64,000 nt of DNA, taken from contig NC_068569.1 in NCBI RefSeq assembly GCF_025698545.1, positions 9,982,001-10,046,000 on the forward strand, given 5' to 3'. The DNA comes from Gossypium raimondii (lineage: Eukaryota; Streptophyta; Magnoliopsida; Malvales; Malvaceae). Below, piece by piece: positions 6,240-55,066 of this stretch. The stretch's first letter is position 1, and the number at the start of each line of letters is the position of its first letter. The notes beneath the pieces are model-generated. The model worked only from the letters and a program-made list of their open reading frames with translations, made no database searches and was not told the DNA's origin. The position numbers were made by a program, and so were the translations under genes.

Positions 6240-9200
6240 TTACTGCACCAATCCATGTTTTACCAATTCTTCTAATCCTGTCTTCAGCCTCTGTGCAGCT
6301 GCTCTACAGTCATTTTCCATGAGCCCACCAAAGGAAATCCTCAAATGCCCCGGGGACCCACATGCACTCCCTGGGATCACAACCACCCCATGCCTGTGAG
6401 CAAGCCAGTGAACCACCTTCACATCATCCATGCATTTCTCTGGTAGCGTCGCCCATAAGTAAATTGCACCTTCTCCACCCAGCACAGCACCTTCACCCAA
6501 TGGTGACAGTGCTTCTATAACTATTTCTCGATTCTTCACGAGATCTTTGACTTGTTCGCGAACCCATTCAGGTCCCAATTCTAACGAGTGAAGAGCTAGT
6601 TGTTGAGAAATTAACGAAGCGCAGATTGGTATGTTGTCTTGAACCTTGAGAAGTTGAGTTGCAAGGCCCTCCACTTCTGTGGGGTATGCAATCTACATGC
6701 ATATTCATACACGCTTAGATGGATGGATACAAATATTTGATGGCAAACTATGAAGAATGTAACAGATACAAGATAAAACAAATTTGACAAACCAAACAAA
6801 GTCACTTACATATCCAACGCGCCATCCCATCATTCCATAGGCTTTGGAGAAAGAAAAGATGTTGACTATGTGATCTCCTTCCACGCACGAGTGTTTCAGA
6901 CCATCATACATAAAATACCTGCGTATGTGTTGTTACAGACAATATATACAGAATTACAGGTTTCCACACTGCGGACTCTGGGAAATAATCTACAAGCCTT
7001 GATTATCAAAATGCAAACAAAATTCATTATTACATAAACTGCTATTGTATCCTGTACCCATGGGAAAGGAGAAATAGGAAGGTCTGGTCCCCAAGATAAG
7101 ACTGCAAGCATATTTTCATTTCAAAGTTGTTTAAGCTAAAAGTGACATTACTCTAGCAGTAGAAAACAGAATTTTAAAGTAGGTTTGCTTAATCTAGTAT
7201 GACGCAATATCTTAATGTCGTGTTACATGTCATTTAAATGTTCAGCAGTGAGGGGAATAGTTCCTTACACTTTCATAGGAAACCTAAATCCTTAAAGAGC
7301 CTCAAAGTCCTATAGTTCAATTATTGGAATTCAACACCTTGATCAGGATACAAGGCCTTGGTGAAACAAAACAAAGGATCTATCACATGGAATGCATCTA
7401 TAACAGAAACAGGAGACACTTACTCATATGCATCTATCCTTACACTTTCATAGGAAACCTAAATCCTTAAAGAGCCTCAAAGTCCTATAGTTCAATTATT
7501 GGAATTCAACACCTTGATCAGGATACAAGGCCTTGGTGAAACAAAACAAAGGATCTATCACATGGAATGCATCTATAACAGAAACAGGAGACACTTACTC
7601 ATATGTATTATCTACAACCAGCCAGCAACCAGCATTTTTGCATATATCTGAGATCCTCTATTAAGAGAAAAAGAGAGGAGAAAAGAATTAAGAATCATAA
7701 AATGAAACAAGAAATAGAACCAGTTACTCCAAAAAGCATGACTAACAGAAGGAAGCTGTATATGTGTATGCATGTTTGCACACCCACTTACGCTGCCACA
7801 TGAAAACAGACACAAACACAGTGAGTAGAGAGCAAGTGAGAGACCTTAAGTAGCGGCTCGGGAATGTAGGTTCCAGATGGGTTGCCAGGATTAACAACAG
7901 TAACAAGCTTTGGGACAGGCTTGGTTTCCAGCAATGTCCTTTCCAACCAGTCTGAAAATTAAGACAATACTGATAAATAATCTAAAACAGTACACATGAT
8001 ATTCCTGGTCCAAATTATAACACATCATGTGCTTTGATAAATCATCTAAAACAGTACACATGATATTCCTGGTCCAAATTATAACACATTATGTGCTTTG
8101 TTATGCATGTAAACCTTTTGCCCTTATATTACCTAATTGTTGTAATGGTCACATAAGCTCTTCAATTGAAATCAACCAATTTTGTAACTACAAACATACA
8201 TACAATAAACAGGACCAGAACAACGGCAAACCCGTGGAACATAGGCTCTAACTCTAACTTGTGTTCTCTTTTCTCAAGACAAATAAAACTAACAGCAGCA
8301 AATCCAGAGCCGCAAGTGAACAAATAAAAATGACTCTTTCTAACCAGTAATCTTGGACAACATCATTAGACAACTTACTCCGCCCCTAAAATCAATGCAG
8401 CAGCTTTGATAAACAATTAAAGGGCTATCTAGTGAAAAGCTTATCATGACTTGTACCTGCATCTGGATAAAGAGTCTTTGGATAACCAGGACCTACTAAT
8501 ATCTTAGTGACACCTGTCATCTGGAAGGACATGTAGGCATTGAAATAGTATGGAGCAAACATGACAACCGAATCCCCCGCATCACACAGTGTTAGAACAA
8601 GATTCACAAATGCCTGTTACAAAGACCAAAAAAAAAGGATAGTTTGAGAAGTCCTGAGAGGTAATTCATACATTTGACTAATAAAAAGAAAGATAGCTTT
8701 ACATTTTACATTTTAAATCAGCAATAGAATGAAATTTTTATCCATTGTGAAATGGAGGCAGATCATGCATACAAGTTTATTATTGCAAACCCATCACTAG
8801 TTTTTATTCAAAAGGCTTAACCTATTCCACCAAGGATGCAACCAAAATTAGTTTTTATTGCAGAATCTCGTAAGAATAAGCAGCTTGCCAAATTTTATTC
8901 CAAAGTTATAACATTGACTTAAAAGCAGGATGCAACAAGCTAAATAGCAGATTGAGCTATATTGCTTTCCTCGAACTTCAAACAATTGTTCGTAACATCC
9001 AATTTGATCTCGAATCTGACCTTCCAAGGTGATACGTGTACATATCACCTACTAGGTCGCAATTTGTCTCTCTATACCTTCAATATAACGAACAAACTAG
9101 AAGGCACTACAGCTTTACCTGATTTGCTCCTGCAGTGACCATCACCGAAGACCTCTGCAAATTGTTCTCCTGACGTAACTGCATAAAAATACAGGGAACC

Positions 9201-46223: not shown

Positions 46224-47865
46224 CTAGAATATGATTTTCATGCTGTTGATGCCCCTGCAGGAGTGGGAATTAGTCCGCCAAACAGTCCTGGCCCTTAAAA
46301 CTTGGTGTCCACTCTCCAGACGAAGGACATGCTCCACTTCAATCTCTCTATTCTTTTCATTGCTCGGTACCACTCTCGATAATGATTGGATCACATCATC
46401 TTTCAAGCACTCTTTCCGGTACTCAAAATTCATTTTCCAAAGTTCATGCCTATCCCTAATTGAGTCTGGAGTGCTCTGACAATTATTACTTGTAATTCTT
46501 AATTAGTAAATCATGAAAACTGACATTATTTTATATCTATCAAAGCTACGTAGTAGTTGGTAATTAAAATAAAAAGGTAAAATAAAACATCCGAGTTACC
46601 TCCAAAATCCAATCAAGGTACTTGGCATTGTTCACATGGTAATTGACATCTAAATCATTCCATCCAGGCTGCATGTAAAGAAAAAGACTTAGCATATGAG
46701 TTGAGCCAACTGATTCTGATTATATATGTACATACCGTCAATCCAGTTTTGATGTGATCCATTGCCTCAGTTTGGGGACATGAATATTTGAACGCTTCGA
46801 CAATGGGCTCAACATCCTCCCTAAGATAAGCTTTTATCTCGTCTTTCACTTCCTCCGGTAACTTGCATGTCTTTCTTGTGTTCTTATTCATCATCACAGC
46901 TAAGCTGCACATTCCCCGCAATGAACTCAATTATAATACCATATATATAAACACGCCGCAGGTGATTAAAGGGTAACATAACAAATTTTAACCATGAAGC
47001 TCGAACTAGAGTTTCGCCTGTGTTGATGTCATTGATAGTCCAATCAAAACGTACACCGGTCCTTCCGGATGCACAAGTCCAGTGGAGTATCTGAACAACC
47101 TCTCCCCTTCAAAACCACAAACACTCTTTGATTCATTTTTCCACATAGTAACTCAATCATATACAGTAATAAAAAACTAATTTGCAAATTAATAATGTTT
47201 TATTGACAAGTTTTAACTTACCAACAAGGATATCGATCCACCTCGATATGCATGCCTCGAAAGACCCATACCAAGTCCATTTTACGCATTCCCGGTGTTA
47301 TACCGAAACGTGTATCGATTGTCAGACCTAATTTCTTGGCATAGTTCAGCGATGCTTCCTGTTATATATACCAACAAATAATCAGATACAATCAAATTGA
47401 TTTTATAGATCAGCTGATGTAAACAAAAGATGATGATTTGAACGTAAACCTGTAAATAATTCATTATAGCCTTTGTTGACATTTTATATTCAGAGTCGAT
47501 CTCGAATGATCTTACACTAACATTCTGCTGGAAAACCGGTCCACCTTTTACCAGTCTTCCTGCCACTGTCAAAGGTTGCAACAAACGTAAGACTCTTATC
47601 TTTCATCATGTTAAGAAGAAGAAGTTGTCGTACCGGATGGTGAAGTGATCTCCTCATTTTCCATTTCTTTTATCACTGAGGGTACTCGAATCTCATCATT
47701 AAGGGCTGGTTGAGCGTGATTGATCTTCAAACTACAGTTAATAACACTAAACCTAACTGTCTTTTGGATCGCATTTGAAGTTATGTTGACTCGTTGCAAG
47801 GAAACCTTGGATTTATTCCATGTTGAAGCAAAGGGTGGCATATTGAAGAATATAGACGTTGCCAT
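46224..47865 (-). CDS. FatB-like acyl-ACP thioesterase, plastidial, 7 exons
   Basis: Exons, 5' to 3': 47634-47865, 47450-47565, 47222-47358, 46993-47106, 46736-46904, 46600-46668, 46224-46475; 1089 nt, 362 aa. The family hydrolyses acyl-ACP in the plastid stroma to release free fatty acids. The first ~75 residues are a Ser/Thr/Asn-rich transit peptide. The two hot-dog domains follow, with 'VSVRSFEI', 'WTCASGRTGVRFDW' and 'MMNKNTRKTCKLPEEV'. Catalytic positions are conserved: Asp263, Asn265 and His267 in 'DVNYHVNN', and Glu301/Cys302 in 'EYRKEC'. The sequence is closer to FatB than FatA but divergent ('KYLDWILES' for the usual KYIGWILES), and the FatB N-terminal hydrophobic anchor is not evident, so specificity cannot be assigned. 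The first intron is only 68 bp. The stop codon is 28 bp from the solo LTR. Confidence 0.88.
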
Positions 47866-48609
47866 TATATATTTAGATGGAAAACAGTGATCTTTGATGA
47901 ATATTGGAGGAAGCAAATGTGACCAAACCTTTGAGTTTGAAGGACAACTATACATCACATATATATATATATACATAATAATTTATAAAAAAAGGAAACA
48001 AGCAATTTGCAATATTAAATTTAAATAATACTCTACTTCAGTGATTACAAGATCTATAGAATATCCCCTATGTTAGTTTTCTAACTTTGATACTGATTTT
48101 ATAATTATTTAAACTTGAATTCAATAAATTAATATTATCAATTTAAATATTATTTTTATTTTAAATTATTTTATGGAAAGCACGTACATACCTCTAAAAA
48201 TATTGCTTTTAATATTATAAATTTGAATTTAAATATAATGATTAAAAATTATTCAAAGTAATTATATTCAAACAAATAAAATACAGTCAATTTTAATTAT
48301 AAAAATAGTTTTATTTGTCATCTAATATACACACAAAAATATTTTGAATGTCACGCAAATGAGTAGAAATATATTCACACATGTAAATACTTTAATATTT
48401 TCAAATAGGTAATTTTTTAATTTAACAAAATCCAACTTCTTTTACCTTGATTTTTAAATAATTGTCATAATTTGACCTAAATTAGAACTTAAGTTTTCAA
48501 TTTTGTGTAAACCTGTAATTATAACTAATTTTTATAATGGAGGCATATTATAAATACAAAAACAAAAACGAGATAAAAAATTTTAAGCATCAAAATATAA
48601 AAATAAATG
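47866..48609. other. thioesterase upstream region and AT-rich spacer
   Basis: The presumed promoter of the thioesterase is here; a TA dinucleotide run lies at about 47959-47975. The rest is AT-rich with no gene. Confidence 0.4.
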
Positions 48610-49395
48610 TAGTTAACGACATAAATCAATTTTATATATTAGCTTTAATATTGGAGCATTAATATTTGGTATTGTTTATATATATTTAAAGTAATTTCAG
48701 TAGCAACATGGAGGTTGTAGACTCTATTATGAAGCTTCTTTAGTTGGATTGTAGCACCGGGAAGAATTTATGATAGTAAAAATGTAAAACGCTTAAAGAT
48801 GCCAAAGTAATCTATATATTAATTAGCCGAAGAGATAAGATGGGATAAATAACCTGCCTTCCCTACATTGTTCTGCCCCTAAATCATTCTCACGCAAAAT
48901 TTAAATTTTCGCTTCATATAGGAAACCAGTGATACGGCTGCCGTATTAACTAAAACAGGTGTGGATCGTTTTAATTAATGTGCATGCTTATAGATTAGAC
49001 TAAAATTAATTTTCTTTTATATGTTTTCTATGTATTAATTAAATTATATTTAGTTATTTTTATAAATTTTATAAATTTTATTTATGTTACGATTAAGGAA
49101 TTAAAATATAATAATATATAATTTTAATTTTAAACGTGAGTTTAAATAATATAAGTATAAATAAATAATGTTCTTACGATTAAACGTGAGTTTTATTACA
49201 CAGTGCGTGTTATTTTTTGAATCTAAAATTTCAAATGCAAACTCTATTAAAATTTTTTTTTTTAAATCCAAGGGAGCGAAGAAATAAACTTTGTGCCTTA
49301 TTTTTCTTCACTATCGTTACTACCAAGATATATATATATATATATATAAAATGTGTGCCAAAACCAAACCCTTTTCTCCTAGTTTTACCAAACTT
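48610..49395. repeat. direct repeat copy A (~786 bp) left of the mobile-domain insertion
   Basis: This segment is nearly identical to 53734-54512, starting at 'cgacataaatcaattt' and ending at 'tagttttaccaaactt'. Differences are scattered substitutions and small indels, a few percent by eye. It has no TG...CA ends, so it is not an LTR. Its right edge is further amplified: the 'tttgtgccttatttttcttcacta' block recurs near 49285, 49400 and 49492. Confidence 0.9.
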
Positions 49396-49671
49396 ACCAA
49401 ACTTTGTGCCTTATTTTTCTTCACTATTACTACCAATATATATATATAATGTGTGCCAAAACCAAACCCTTTTCTCCTAGTTTTACCAAACTTTGTGCCT
49501 TATTTTTCTTCACTATCGAGTTGATGTTTCTGATAAAATAGTTGAATGTAATTGTAAAAAAATTAACTTTGTGCAATTATTAATTGATAAATTGTATTAA
49601 CTCAAAAATTGTATTAATTATCTAACATTATGTGAATGTAAAATTATTAACAAGCAAAAATTGTATTAATG

Positions 49672-50030
49672 GTTAGTAAAATTATCAAATTATATAAAAT
49701 TATTAATTGTTACTACCAATCAAAAATTGTATTAATTGTATTAATAGTTAGTAAAATTATCAAATTATATAAAATTATTAATTGTTACTACCGGTCAAAA
49801 AATTGTATTAATTGTATTAATAGTTAGTAAAATTATCAAATTATATAAAATTATTAATTGTTACTACCGGTCAAAAAATTGTATTAATTGTATTAATAGT
49901 TAGTAAAATTATCAAATTATATAAAATTATTAATTGTTACTACCAAAAAAAATTGTATTAATTGTATTAATGATTAGTAAAATTATCAAATTATATAAAA
50001 TTATTAATGGTTAGTAAAATTATTAAATTA
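49672..50030. repeat. ~76-bp AT-rich tandem repeat, 4-5 copies
   Basis: The unit begins gttagtaaaattatcaaatt and includes 'attgttactacc'. Unit starts are at 49672, 49747, 49823, 49899 and 49972, then a shortened copy at 50010, so the period is 73-76 bp. It passes directly into the TTAGGG-type repeat. Confidence 0.85.
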
Positions 50031-51090
50031 GGTTAGGGTTAGGGTTTTAATCAAATTAGGTTAGGGTATGGTTTTTACTTAAATTAGGCTAGGGTTAGGG
50101 TTAGAGTTTTTAATTAAATTAGGTTAGGGTTATGATTTTAATCAAATTAGGTTAGGGTTAAGATTTTTAATTAAATTAGGTTAGGGTTAGGGTTTTTAAT
50201 CAAATTAGGTTAGGGGTAGGGTTTTTAATCAAATTAGTTTAGGGTTAGGGTTTTTAATTCAATTAAGTTAGAGTTAGGGTTTTTAATTAAATTAGGTTAG
50301 GGTTTTTAATCAAATTAGGTTAGGGGTAGGGTTTTTAATCCAATTAGGTTAGGGGTAGGGTTTTTAATCCAATTAGGTTAGGGGTAGGGTTTTTAATTAA
50401 ATTAGGTTAGGGATACGGTTTAGGGGTAGGGTTTTTAATCAAATTAGGTTAGGGATACGGTTTTTAATTAAATTAGGTTAGGGGTAGGTTTTTAATCAAA
50501 TTAGGTTAGGGGTACGATTTTTAATCAAATTAGGTTAGGGTTAGGGTTATTAATCAAATTAGGTTAGGGTTAGAGTTTTTAATCAAATTAGGTTAGGGTT
50601 AGGGTTTTTAATTAAATTCGATTAGGGTTAGGGTTTTTAATCAAATTCAGTTAGGGTTAAGGTTTTTAATCAAATTAGGTTAGTTAGGGTTAGGGTTTTT
50701 AATCAAATTAGGTTAGGGGTACGGTTTTTACCTAAATTAGGTTAGAGTTAAGGTTTTTAATTAAATTAGGTTAGGGTTAGGGTTAGGGTTTTTAATTAAA
50801 TTAGGTTAGGGTTAGGGTTTTTAATCGAATTAGGTTAGGGTTAGGGTTTTTAATGAAATTAGGTTAGGGGTAGGGATTTTAATCAAATTAGGTTAGGGTT
50901 AGGGTTTTTAATTAAATTAGGTTAGGGTTTTTAATCAAATTAGGTTAGGGTTAGGGTTTTTAATCAAATTAGGTTAGGGTTAGGGTTTTTAATCAAATTA
51001 GGTTAGGGTTAGGGCTTTTAATCAAATTAGTTTAGGGTTAAGGTTTTAATCAAATTAGGTTAGGGTTTGGGGTTTTAGGGTTTATGGTTT
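50026..51090. repeat. TTAGGG-containing minisatellite, ~29-bp unit
   Basis: About 1.06 kb of repeats of the form aaattaggttagggttagggtttttaatc, with variants (ggggtaggg, ggatacgg, ggttaagg). The core TTAGGG resembles vertebrate-type telomere repeat rather than the usual plant TTTAGGG; a few TTTAGGG units appear only at the right edge (51080-51100). Confidence 0.9.
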
Positions 51091-53260
51091 AGGGTTTAGA
51101 ATTCAGTGTCACATGGCGGCCTTCGACGGTTACGCGTTGGATTCCTCCTTTCTCTAGCTTCCGGCGGCGGTTGTTGTTTCTCCGGTGGGGATTCTGGTTC
51201 TTCCGGTTCGGTATCTGGTTGTCGAACTTGGGATGATGATCCACTTTCAAAGAATAGTGTGGTGGAGGTGTTTGCATCAGGAACGGCGACGGTGTTTGAA
51301 ACTCATACGTTGGTGGGGATTGGTAAAAAGAAGAGCTCCCCGACGGCCCCCCTTGCGATCCCTCGTGCGCCGTTGGCCTATACATCGGCAGTCCGCTCGG
51401 CATAATAGAAAATGGAGCTGAACCGGGCATTTGGCTCCTACCTGCCATAGGACTCGGAAAAGGATACATATAAGGGTTAGGGTACATATAAGGGCTAGGA
51501 AACGCATCTGGCATCATCTGAAAAGGCGGTTGCGTGGGTATCATCGGTTGTACTGCTGCGTCGGGTGACTGCGTCGGTGCTCTCGTTGGGCCTGGTGATT
51601 GCATGGCCGCTGATGATAGGCCGGGTGAATGTTTGGGCCTCGTTGAGGGGCTGCCTTCGTTGTCTTGTTGTCTTGGATTTAGAGGCCCGCACCTTTCCCT
51701 TTCGCGACGTATTTGTCACTGCCTCTCTACTGGCGTCAGTAAATATGGCTTGCTATGGATCCTAAACCATGACATGTATTCTGGAACGCACGCTAACTCC
51801 GGAACGATGATTGGTTCCCGAGTAGGTAGATATTCATACCGATCTTCCCACATTTCCATGTACTCAGACTAGTATCTCGTCCAATCCGTATTCAATTGCC
51901 GAAGGTCGACTTTGTGTTGCTCGTCAAACACCTCAGGATCCACCGGAATCGGTTGTCTACATCCAAACTATAGTAGCACTCTGTCTGTCTGGTGCGGCTC
52001 CACGATTGCGTAGTTGATCAACACGACTTTCACGTGCCAAAGTTGTGGATTTTGTAAAAACTCTTTCGGGATTACTGCCCGAATTGCCGGATCCTCGTAT
52101 GGTGTCTATTGAAACTATATGAACATGATAGAAATATTAGTTATATTTATAATACTAAATACTAAATATCAATCGACTAGCGAATGTATAGAAATATCTA
52201 TTTTCAATAATACTTACTTCTGCTTCCGACCATTGGTCCAATAGAAGCCGTATATCTTCAAGTGAGGACGGTAATCGAGCATAACTTGCCGGATGGTTCC
52301 ACCTAAGTAAATAAATTTTTAGCATACTTTTATTTTTAAAAATCTACATAATAATTGTAAAATGTAATATAAAATTTGCCTCGTTATGAGTGGGAATGTA
52401 TACGGGTGGTTCACCCGAGGACGTAGAAATAGAAAGCGAAACCGTGCCCATGACTGCAGTAGTGATAGGTAACCTCCGATGTTTGCTCTCCTCGGTCGCG
52501 TCGCGCCGCACATCTCCCGATATAATGTTGCCTAGACAGTAGACCCCCAACTAAATTCACCGACTGCTCTAAAATCAGCGAGTTTCATCAGCCATCTTAG
52601 ATGTACGCGGCTCCGTGACATGTCGGGCATCAGATAACCTCCAATTATTTGTAGAATGTATGCCCGAGCATATCGGATTCTTTTAATTTCGGTTGAATCT
52701 TCATTCGGATCAGGGAATGTGTCACGTAACCAGCCCATCTCGACCTTACCTCCCTCCATTTTCTCCGGAATAGCGTCCAGAAGCTTGTAGCACACCGCCT
52801 CCCAATTGCTAGATTGGGCAGACCCGATAACTGGGCACCTGTCCACCCGCAATCCTAATTGCAGATGGACATCTTCTAGAGTGATAGTGTACTCTCCACA
52901 TGGAGGATGGAATGTGTGCGTCTCGGGTCTCCACCTCTCGATCAACGCACTGATCAGTTTCGGGTCCAACTTGCATCCCCGGCCTACCGTCGCCACGTGC
53001 CAAAAACCAGCTTCCTACAGGTAGTTCTTTACCAACGGTGATGGAAGAGCATGCATATTCCGGATTGCATTCCAATACCTGATCTACAGACTTTTATAAC
53101 AAATAATAAATTAATAATTATCTAAAAATGCATAAATAAAAAATTCTTAAATAATATTTAAAAATTAAATTTAACACTTACCATTTTCATTTGTTCCACC
53201 GATATGTGATGATTATCAAGACGAGTCAATGATCCGGCTATTGATGAAATCGTACAAATT
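51089..53260 (-). pseudogene. plant mobile domain (MAIN-like, 'PP7 long form') transposon gene, broken
   Basis: Plant mobile domain proteins occur as cellular MAIN/MAIL proteins and inside plant transposons. A first exon (about 53182-53260) has 'GSLTRLDNHHISVEQMKM'. After an intron (53091-53181) come 'GFWHVATVGRGCKLD', 'RWRPETHTFHPPCGEYTITL', 'MGWLRDTFPDP', 'RYARAYILQIIGGYLMPD' and 'LQSWARFRF', then a second intron, 'LEDIRLLLDQWSEAE', and a last exon (about 52116-51089) ending in a Pro/Met/Ser-rich tail. Six in-frame stops interrupt it: 53015-53017, 52532-52534, 52106-52108, 51968-51970, 51869-51871, 51716-51718; there is also a frameshift near 53070. The last four are in one otherwise continuous frame. 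The final codons run into the minisatellite, so the true C-terminus may be lost. Function is unknown even for intact copies. Confidence 0.88.
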
Positions 53261-53559
53261 TTTACGATTTATAAAAATATAAAAAAAATTTAAAATTATT
53301 TTAAAAAAGGAAATTGAGAGCAAATTGAAATTAAATATGGATTTGAGAGAATTTTGGAAGGAAATTGAGAGGAATTTGAAATTAAATATGGATTTGAGAG
53401 AATTTTGAAAGGAAATTGAGAGGAATTGAGAGGAAATATGAGAGGATTTGTTTGTGAAAAAAAAGGGGTGGGAGTATTTATCGTTTTTTTTTTTACCGTT
53501 GGGGGGGGCAACGGTCAAATTTTTGACCGTTGGGTACTGTTCACACGCGGGTGAAAATC

Positions 53560-53636
53560 GCGTCCACGTCAGCAACTCGAGCTGACGTGGACGCGGTTTA
53601 CTGGCGTGTACCCTTACATCGCGCTGACGTGGACGC
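53560..53636. repeat. three copies of GCGTCCACGTCAGC, two forming a perfect hairpin
   Basis: gcgtccacgtcagc (53560-53573) is followed after 7 bp by its exact inverse (53581-53594), and the inverse form recurs at 53623-53636. They lie about 300-375 bp upstream of the mobile-domain reading frame, where its promoter should be. Each contains CACGTCAGC, a bZIP-like ACGT core. Confidence 0.8.
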
Positions 53637-53733
53637 GATTTCGCAGAAAATGGACCATTCCGGTAAATAATTAAATAATGGGCCCATTTCGATAATTTTT
53701 GAAAAAAATGGGCTTTTATTGGTAAATTGCCCA

Positions 53734-54512
53734 TAGTTCACGACATAAATCAATTTTTATATATTAGCTTTAATATTGGAGCATTAATATTTGGTATTGT
53801 TTATATATATTTAAAGTAATTTCAGTAGCAACATGGAGGTTGTAGACTCTATTATGAAGCTACTTTAGTTGGATTGTAGCACCGGGAAGAATTTATGATA
53901 GTAAAAATGTAAAACGCTTAAAGATGCCAAAGTAATCTATATATTGGTTAGCCGAAGAGATAAGATGGGATAAATAATCTGCCTTCCCTACATTGTTCTG
54001 CCCCTAAATCATTCTCACGTAAATTTTAAATTTCCGTTTCGTATAGGAAACCAGTGATACGGCTGCCGTATTAACTAAAACAGGTGTGGACCGTTTTAAT
54101 TAATGTGCATGCTTATAGATTAGACTAAAATTAATTTTCTTTTATATGTTATCTATGTATTAATTAAATTATATTTAGTTATTTTTATAAATTTTATAAT
54201 TTTTATTTATGTTACGATTAAGGAATTAAAATATAATAATATATAATTTTAATTTTAAATGTGAGTTTAAATAATATAAGTATTAATAAATAATGTTCTT
54301 ACGATTAAACGTGAGGTTTATTACACAGTGCGTGTTATTTTTGAATCTAAAATTTCAAATGCAAACTCTATTAAGGATTTTTTAAAATCCAAGGAGCGAA
54401 GAAATAAACTTTGTGCCTTATTTTTCTTCACTATCGTTACTACCAATATATATATATATATATATATATGTGTGCCAAAACCAAACCCTTTTCTCCTAGT
54501 TTTACCAAACTT
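53734..54512. repeat. direct repeat copy B (~779 bp) right of the mobile-domain insertion
   Basis: Counterpart of 48610-49395 in the same orientation. Past its right end (54513 on) the sequence continues into the unique DNA leading to the RING exon, so this copy probably retains the original junction. Confidence 0.9.
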
Positions 54513-54868
54513 CTACGAGTCCACATTAAATTTGGTGGTAAATAATACAAATATAACTATATTTTACCCATTTTTTATATTTTACATTTTAAGTAAAAAA
54601 TGTAAAATAATCTGTGTAAAAAATATACTAGAAATTCAATCACACGCATGTGTATTAAGACAATGTATTTAAAGCACAAAGGTGAATTTGAAAGTAACAT
54701 AGGATAATATTCAACCAAAGTTGGCATAAGTATTTCTCTTTATTCAGATGGTTTACAATTTATAAGTAGAATACATACAGATAGACTCCTGAGGTGGTTA
54801 TATGAGATTTGATTTTTGCCTGTACTAGGATTTTAGTAATACAGCATACAGAATTGAGGTGTTGACAG

Positions 54869-55066
54869 GTATGTTGTATTTGCTTGGCAAAATATGCAGA
54901 CAATGATGAGCTGAGGGAGCTGCCATGCATCCATTTCTTCCATGCGGAGTGTGTAAATAAGTGGGTGAAATTCAATGCCTCTTGTCCCTTATGTAAAAGC
55001 GATGTTGGTGGGAGCAGCACTGCTTCACCATTAGCTTGGGAAAGCGATGGACGAGAAACCAGTTGA
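54869..55066 (+). pseudogene. orphan terminal exon of a RING-H2 zinc-finger gene
   Basis: A GACAG acceptor at 54868 is followed by a frame reading 'VCCICLAKYADNDELRELPC', then 'IHFFHAECVNKW' and 'CPLCKSDVG', ending in TGA at 55064-55066. The zinc ligands C-x2-C, C-x-H, x2-H-x2-C and C-P-L-C form a complete RING-H2 domain, the E2-binding module of ubiquitin ligases. In Arabidopsis the gene before NAA15 (I recall At1g80400) encodes a membrane RING protein with this domain at its C-terminus. No upstream exons were found between 54513 and 54868 or left of the insertion, so I treat it as a decapitated relic. It could still be a real last exon if the 5' part lies in DNA I failed to recognise. Confidence 0.6.

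Follow-up and report, generated by a model that had tools for sequence, protein, structure and literature searches.

A left-truncated Mutator-like element between two copies of its flank in Gossypium raimondii: probable duplication by break repair

The window analysed here is a stretch of 64,000 nucleotides from Gossypium raimondii (G000:C5:9982001-10046000 in a 750.8-Mb assembly; all coordinates below are window positions), in which an insert lies between two near-identical direct copies of a host segment, called A-left and A-right (Table 1). Judged by comparison with other loci in the genome, this insert is one copy of a dispersed family of Mutator-like elements (MULEs) that carry a plant-mobile-domain (PMD) gene. 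The arrangement probably originated by ordinary insertion of the element at the left edge of A, after which a break at the left end of the element was repaired by copying A, with template switching. It appears to illustrate clearly an event of an already known kind and not a new genetic system, unusual as it is in its details. The original prediction had attributed the structure to repair of a staggered or resected break that captured foreign DNA and duplicated the flanks on an unusually long scale, or to a tandem duplication followed by insertion between the copies. Break repair is indeed the likely cause, whereas capture of foreign DNA does not fit an insert that is a copy of a dispersed family, the other copies of which have 9-bp target duplications. 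Since the insert belongs to a MULE family with such ordinary duplications, there is no need to invoke a staggered break of unusual length or an insertion between pre-existing tandem copies.

Table 1 Features of the duplicated segment A and of the MULE copy between its two copies
Feature	Position	Strand	Remarks
A-left (left copy of duplicated flank)	48610..49395	+	786 nt; contiguous with left flank, resembling an empty site; 96% identical to 53734-54512
Local re-copies of the A end (last ~100 bp)	49396..49518	+	One near-full unit, then a truncated third unit
27-bp fragment of MULE left subterminal repeat	49516..49542	+	27/27 identical to L045 (C8 copy, offset 327 from left terminus)
MULE body, left-truncated and internally deleted	49537..53732	- (strand of PMD gene)	Aligned with L041-L045 and L047
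76-bp AT-rich minisatellite	49659..50013	+	Part of element
29-bp telomere-like minisatellite (AAATTAGGTTAGGGTTAGGGTTTTTAATC)	50025..51077	+	Part of element
Decayed PMD gene	51101..53216 (outer limits approximate)	-	PF10536, E 1.3e-32 at 52532-53011
Right terminal inverted repeat, ending GGTAAATTGCCC	53563..53732	-	Inverted match to left ends of L044 and L045
Putative right target-site duplication ATAGTTCAC	53733..53741	+	Position deduced from the 9-bp rule of the family
A-right (right copy)	53734..54512	+	779 nt; continues into other DNA

The near-identity of the two copies of A, noticed at the outset, was confirmed by alignment, which gave 758 identical columns, 19 substitutions (10 transitions and 9 transversions) and 11 gap columns. 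The substitution divergence is 19/777, or 0.025 by the Jukes-Cantor formula. The homology ends sharply, with 12/49 matching bases upstream and 16/50 downstream of the edges, and the copies are 5.1 kb apart. A genome search with A listed 42 matches (40 of 67 candidates scored), among which A-left and A-right, at 96% identity, are the only full-length ones; no third full-length A, for example on a separate haplotig, was among the matches listed from these scored candidates of the 281-contig assembly. Two of the others are partial copies in the immediate neighbourhood (49399-49493 and 49488-49518); the remaining 38 are confined to parts of approximately A positions 394-567, with 71-89% identity. 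A positions of about 417-567 (window 49026-49176) are what remains of an old dispersed repeat that is AT-rich, several copies of which are homologous beyond the portion retained in A. This old repeat (A positions of about 394-567) was also considered as the cause of the duplication and rejected.

Direct copies that surround a gene call to mind a transposon with long terminal repeats, and A could be regarded as the terminal repeat of an LTR-like or terminal-direct-repeat element. However, the family to which the insert belongs is bounded by inverted ends of its own, and we give this view next to no chance. Both an LTR retrotransposon and a terminal-direct-repeat transposon were rejected, as among the matches listed full-length A occurs only at the window locus and other family copies are without A; the earlier observation that the repeats lack LTR ends is borne out. 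Assembly error is another explanation for a repeated flank. In a false haplotype join, an empty haplotype (flank and A) would have been pasted to a filled one (broken MULE and A), which gives the observed order of parts, and the divergence of 2.4% could be allelic. Nevertheless, there are no Ns in the window, the third full-length A mentioned above is missing from the matches listed, and an overlap of contigs would not be expected to leave the microhomology joins, re-copied units and 27-bp fragment described below, and we consider such a join quite unlikely.

The identity of the insert follows from its relatives elsewhere in the genome. A query of 301 bases covering the right end (53440-53740) gave 2593 first-look candidates, 40 of which were scored including the window copy; query base 293, which is window position 53732, is the precise endpoint of 17 of the 39 other matches, and 36 end within query bases 289-297 (window 53728-53736). 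With the PMD body as query (51070-53300) there were 1620 first-look candidates, and the matches among the 40 scored, the window copy excluded, show 88-94% identity. A random sample of 20 stretches of 10 kb contained two PMD relics (L031, L032) and short low-complexity matches. Four family copies from the right-end list were read (L041-L044, of which L042 is the copy on C3); two more were read in their left parts and at their right ends (L045-L048), with the PMD body of L045 and L047 placed by an adjoining PMD-body match. In each of the six copies in which this region could be compared (L041-L045 and L047), homologues of the AT-rich and then of the telomere-like minisatellite precede the PMD gene in conserved order, and both minisatellites thus belong to the MULE. 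The two minisatellites and the dead PMD gene are all present as originally described, but the minisatellites are related to the gene instead of being unrelated to it. Recurrence of a complete repeat-minisatellite-gene-repeat unit at many loci had been named as the mark of an ordinary transposon with terminal direct repeats; these six copies do show the series minisatellite-minisatellite-gene, but the matches listed include no further full-length 780-bp repeat. A third tandem array, with a period of about 125 bp, lies just inside the left terminal repeat (L044, around 332-711), and further units of it adjoin many left ends among the listed left-end matches.

Searching other mobile-domain copies for the ends of the element, as had been suggested, was rewarding and revealed terminal inverted repeats and 9-bp target duplications. 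L044 is complete: its terminal inverted repeats measure about 115 bp, and outside them stands CATTCTGTG, a perfectly duplicated 9-bp target. In the C8 copy the terminal inverted repeats measure about 170 bp, and each flank bears CTTAAGCAA. A left-end search (2912 candidates, 40 scored) allowed pairing of the ends of seven further copies, picked for having both ends in the right-end and left-end listings. Six of these have perfect 9-bp duplications flush with the ends. The seventh, at 20.2 Mb on C11, was counted with a duplication of 7/9 flush with the ends (8/9 when the register is moved by one base). Consequently, all nine other copies read at both ends possess 9-bp target duplications, eight perfect and one 7/9. 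L041, L043 and L047 were omitted from this count because the stretch read yielded no left terminal repeat, which either lies beyond it or is missing. Long direct repeats in flanks of about 800 bp were found in none of the seven other copies tested; a single 23-bp match in the flanks of the C10 copy (E 0.002) was taken as chance. These data bear on the idea of a staggered or resected break in which the 780 bp would be a giant target duplication. Such an origin formally matches the order of A, insert and A, yet it is at odds with the 9-bp duplications in 9/9 other copies and with the fact that the element end facing A-left is broken and is not a terminal repeat, which makes it very improbable.

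The PMD gene of the window copy, recognizable by Pfam PF10536, is a relic with 15 stops in one frame of 51101-53200 on the minus strand. PMD proteins are related to silencing. More can be learned from the longer C3 copy (G000:C3:13964625-13971983; L042, L063), in which about 7.4 kb lies between paired ends. On the strand opposite the PMD gene this copy has a SWIM zinc finger above the cut-off (PF04434, E 1.3e-7) and, in this one longer copy examined, a sub-threshold match to a MULE transposase (PF10551, E 0.027); because of these two matches, the family likely includes a transposase. The SWIM/transposase stretch is located to the left of the AATAGTTGAATG point and is absent from the window copy. 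The two genes of the C3 copy are apparently convergent, with the minisatellites between them.

The family shares with MULEs its 9-bp target duplication of variable sequence, long terminal inverted repeats and the PMD gene aboard, as well as the SWIM zinc finger and weak transposase match of the longer copy. A variable 9-bp target duplication is listed for Mutator elements in the part of the literature considered (PMC4423477). PMD genes in MULEs are reported from rice, several grasses and Amborella, and PMDs fused to MULE transposases from grasses and Amborella, in the portions of PMC5418596 used here; unlike the MULE-PMD elements presented there, the window family has its PMD gene separate and on the opposite strand, and the window copy has lost its left end. 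PMDs are not restricted to MULEs, being carried by 57% of Ogre elements according to the relevant part of PMC6317226. An Ogre/Tat retrotransposon origin of the PMD gene was ruled out, since the inverted ends and 9-bp target duplications indicate a MULE.

Of the two ends of the element, the right one is preserved in the window. Its terminal repeat matches the left end of L044 over 115 bp (90%) and that of L045 over 171 columns (85%). The right terminus is intact to 53732, and homology of A-right starts within 1 bp of it; the start of A-right is set by the transposon end. A left terminal repeat of the MULE was not detected in the window at E 0.001, and the window copy thus keeps the right one only. 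A target duplication at this site can be judged solely against the empty-site counterpart at 48609-48617, GTAGTTAAC, which agrees with ATAGTTCAC at 7/9 positions; this is more mismatch than the 2.2% divergence of the rest predicts (binomial P of about 0.016), a point against the origin proposed below. We infer, from the 9-bp rule of the family, that a 9-bp duplication was made here; the left target copy beside the element has been lost. If the MULE entered a site at which left flank and A were single-copy, and A-right starts at the MULE end, the present junction of left flank and A-left is the uninterrupted site, without a breakpoint at 48610. The alternative that A was first duplicated in tandem and that the MULE inserted between the copies afterwards would give A, MULE and A too. 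However, coincidence of the A boundary with the MULE terminus to within 1 bp would then be due to chance only, and a further event would be required for the missing left end and the extra joins, so that we regard this sequence of events as distinctly improbable.

Every abnormal join falls between 49395 and 49542, where the end of the element is missing. A-left ends in ACCAAACTT, after which the sequence falls back about 100 bp into the re-copied end of A, in accordance with the amplified inner edge that the original prediction had pointed out. The re-copy joins share 6 bp (AAACTT), and the first join has an extra 9-bp ACCAAACTT repeat. The join between A and the 27-bp fragment at 49516 has a 3-bp microhomology, TCG, and the join between this fragment and the element interior at 49537-49542 has one of 6 bp, AATAGT. 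The latter join has one occurrence genome-wide when up to 2 mismatches are allowed, and the left neighbour at the AATAGT point differs in 6/6 other copies read. Given the base composition, a random join would share a run of 6 bp or more with a probability of about 0.0025, and one of 3 bp or more with a probability of about 0.07, because of which the TCG join alone proves little. The internal deletion marked by the AATAGT join could be older than the duplication.

Since the boundary between A-left and the element is then the only abnormal one, a single repair event at the left end would explain why the element is truncated and A duplicated, and would account for the partial re-copies and the 27-bp fragment as well. 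The most probable course of events would start with insertion of a PMD-carrying MULE exactly at the left edge of A, with a normal 9-bp target duplication. The left end of the MULE would later have been broken or lost, and repair would have lengthened the left flank by copying A. The template may have been an element-free allele or sister chromatid; alternatively, A may have been copied in cis, if the 9-bp target sequence paired with its twin beyond the element, and the sequence fits either template. The new strand would then have slipped back by some 100 bp onto the end of A, switched into the left subterminal repeat of the element for 27 bp, and finally switched into the element interior. The expected outcome is a left-truncated, internally deleted MULE flanked by two copies of A. 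A different route to the same order of parts, with a single A-to-element join, would be a local tandem duplication running from inside the element to the end of A (MULE remnant together with A), after which the first MULE copy, being complete, was lost precisely. Such a complete copy could presumably still excise, unlike a left-truncated one. Nonetheless, excision must leave no extra target copy, and none is seen at 48600-48620, while the 27-bp fragment and the second join stay unexplained; we find this route unlikely. Within the preferred scheme of insertion followed by break repair, it can be envisaged that the 9-bp target duplication acted as the primer from which 780 bp of host DNA was copied, once the left flank had paired with the twin target sequence beyond the element. 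This is a tentative proposal, and a rather doubtful one, to which we would give less credence than to break repair as such. If the primer reading is true, any MULE that is failing at one end can duplicate host DNA adjoining its good end, without transposing.

Various repair processes leave products of this type. Serial joins and short templated filler, as well as internal deletions at short direct repeats, are features of abortive gap repair at MuDR and Ds and of microhomology-mediated break-induced replication; the window case differs from both in that a 780-bp host segment was apparently copied as well. Tandem duplications at breaks were reportedly also observed by Vaughn and Bennetzen in 2014 and by Schiml et al. 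in 2016. These resemble the present case as direct duplications at a repaired break, but here 780 bp is involved and a transposon lies between the copies. The experimental complementary overhangs that gave tandem duplications in the part of PMC8355091 considered were 43 and 50 bp. Among the literature considered, the nearest published process is gap filling at TIR transposons. Gap-filling duplications of this kind, called Pack-TIRs, are described in animals, with 160/281 fillers within 15 kb of their source and 190/281 having microhomology at one or more breakpoints (PMC8277862, in the sections considered). As far as that account goes, the similarities are a nearby source copy (here at 5.1 kb), microhomology at the joins (here 6, 3 and 6 bp), a break in or at a transposon, and a product that is single-copy. 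A Pack-TIR filler as presented there is located inside the element, whereas in the window the filler corresponds to the flank on the right of the element itself and one terminal repeat is lost. Because the filler is not between both ends of one TIR element, the window case, which works in the manner of gap filling, is not classed as a Pack-TIR.

The locus offers a well-preserved example of a DNA transposon that may duplicate adjacent host DNA by repair and not by transposition, and it illustrates that inserts can be flanked by long direct repeats which are neither target duplications nor terminal repeats. The size of the family, judged from the first-look candidates for the PMD body and the right end, permits a scan for one-ended copies with a duplicated flank, from which the frequency of such events may be obtained. 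As to the surroundings, open pieces on the minus strand at 46658-47108 have weak, sub-threshold matches to acyl-ACP thioesterases (PF01643, E 0.002 and 0.06), and for that reason A may be situated upstream of a thioesterase-like gene or relic. About 350 bp to the right of A-right, an open frame on the plus strand (54866-55063) encodes a RING-H2 domain (PF13639, E 3.9e-14), which may represent either a fragment or one of the exons of a larger gene. Elsewhere in the window, two short tandem duplications occur close together, at 7262-7612 (two units of 175 bp, 98%) and at 7971-8100 (two units of 64 bp, 96%).
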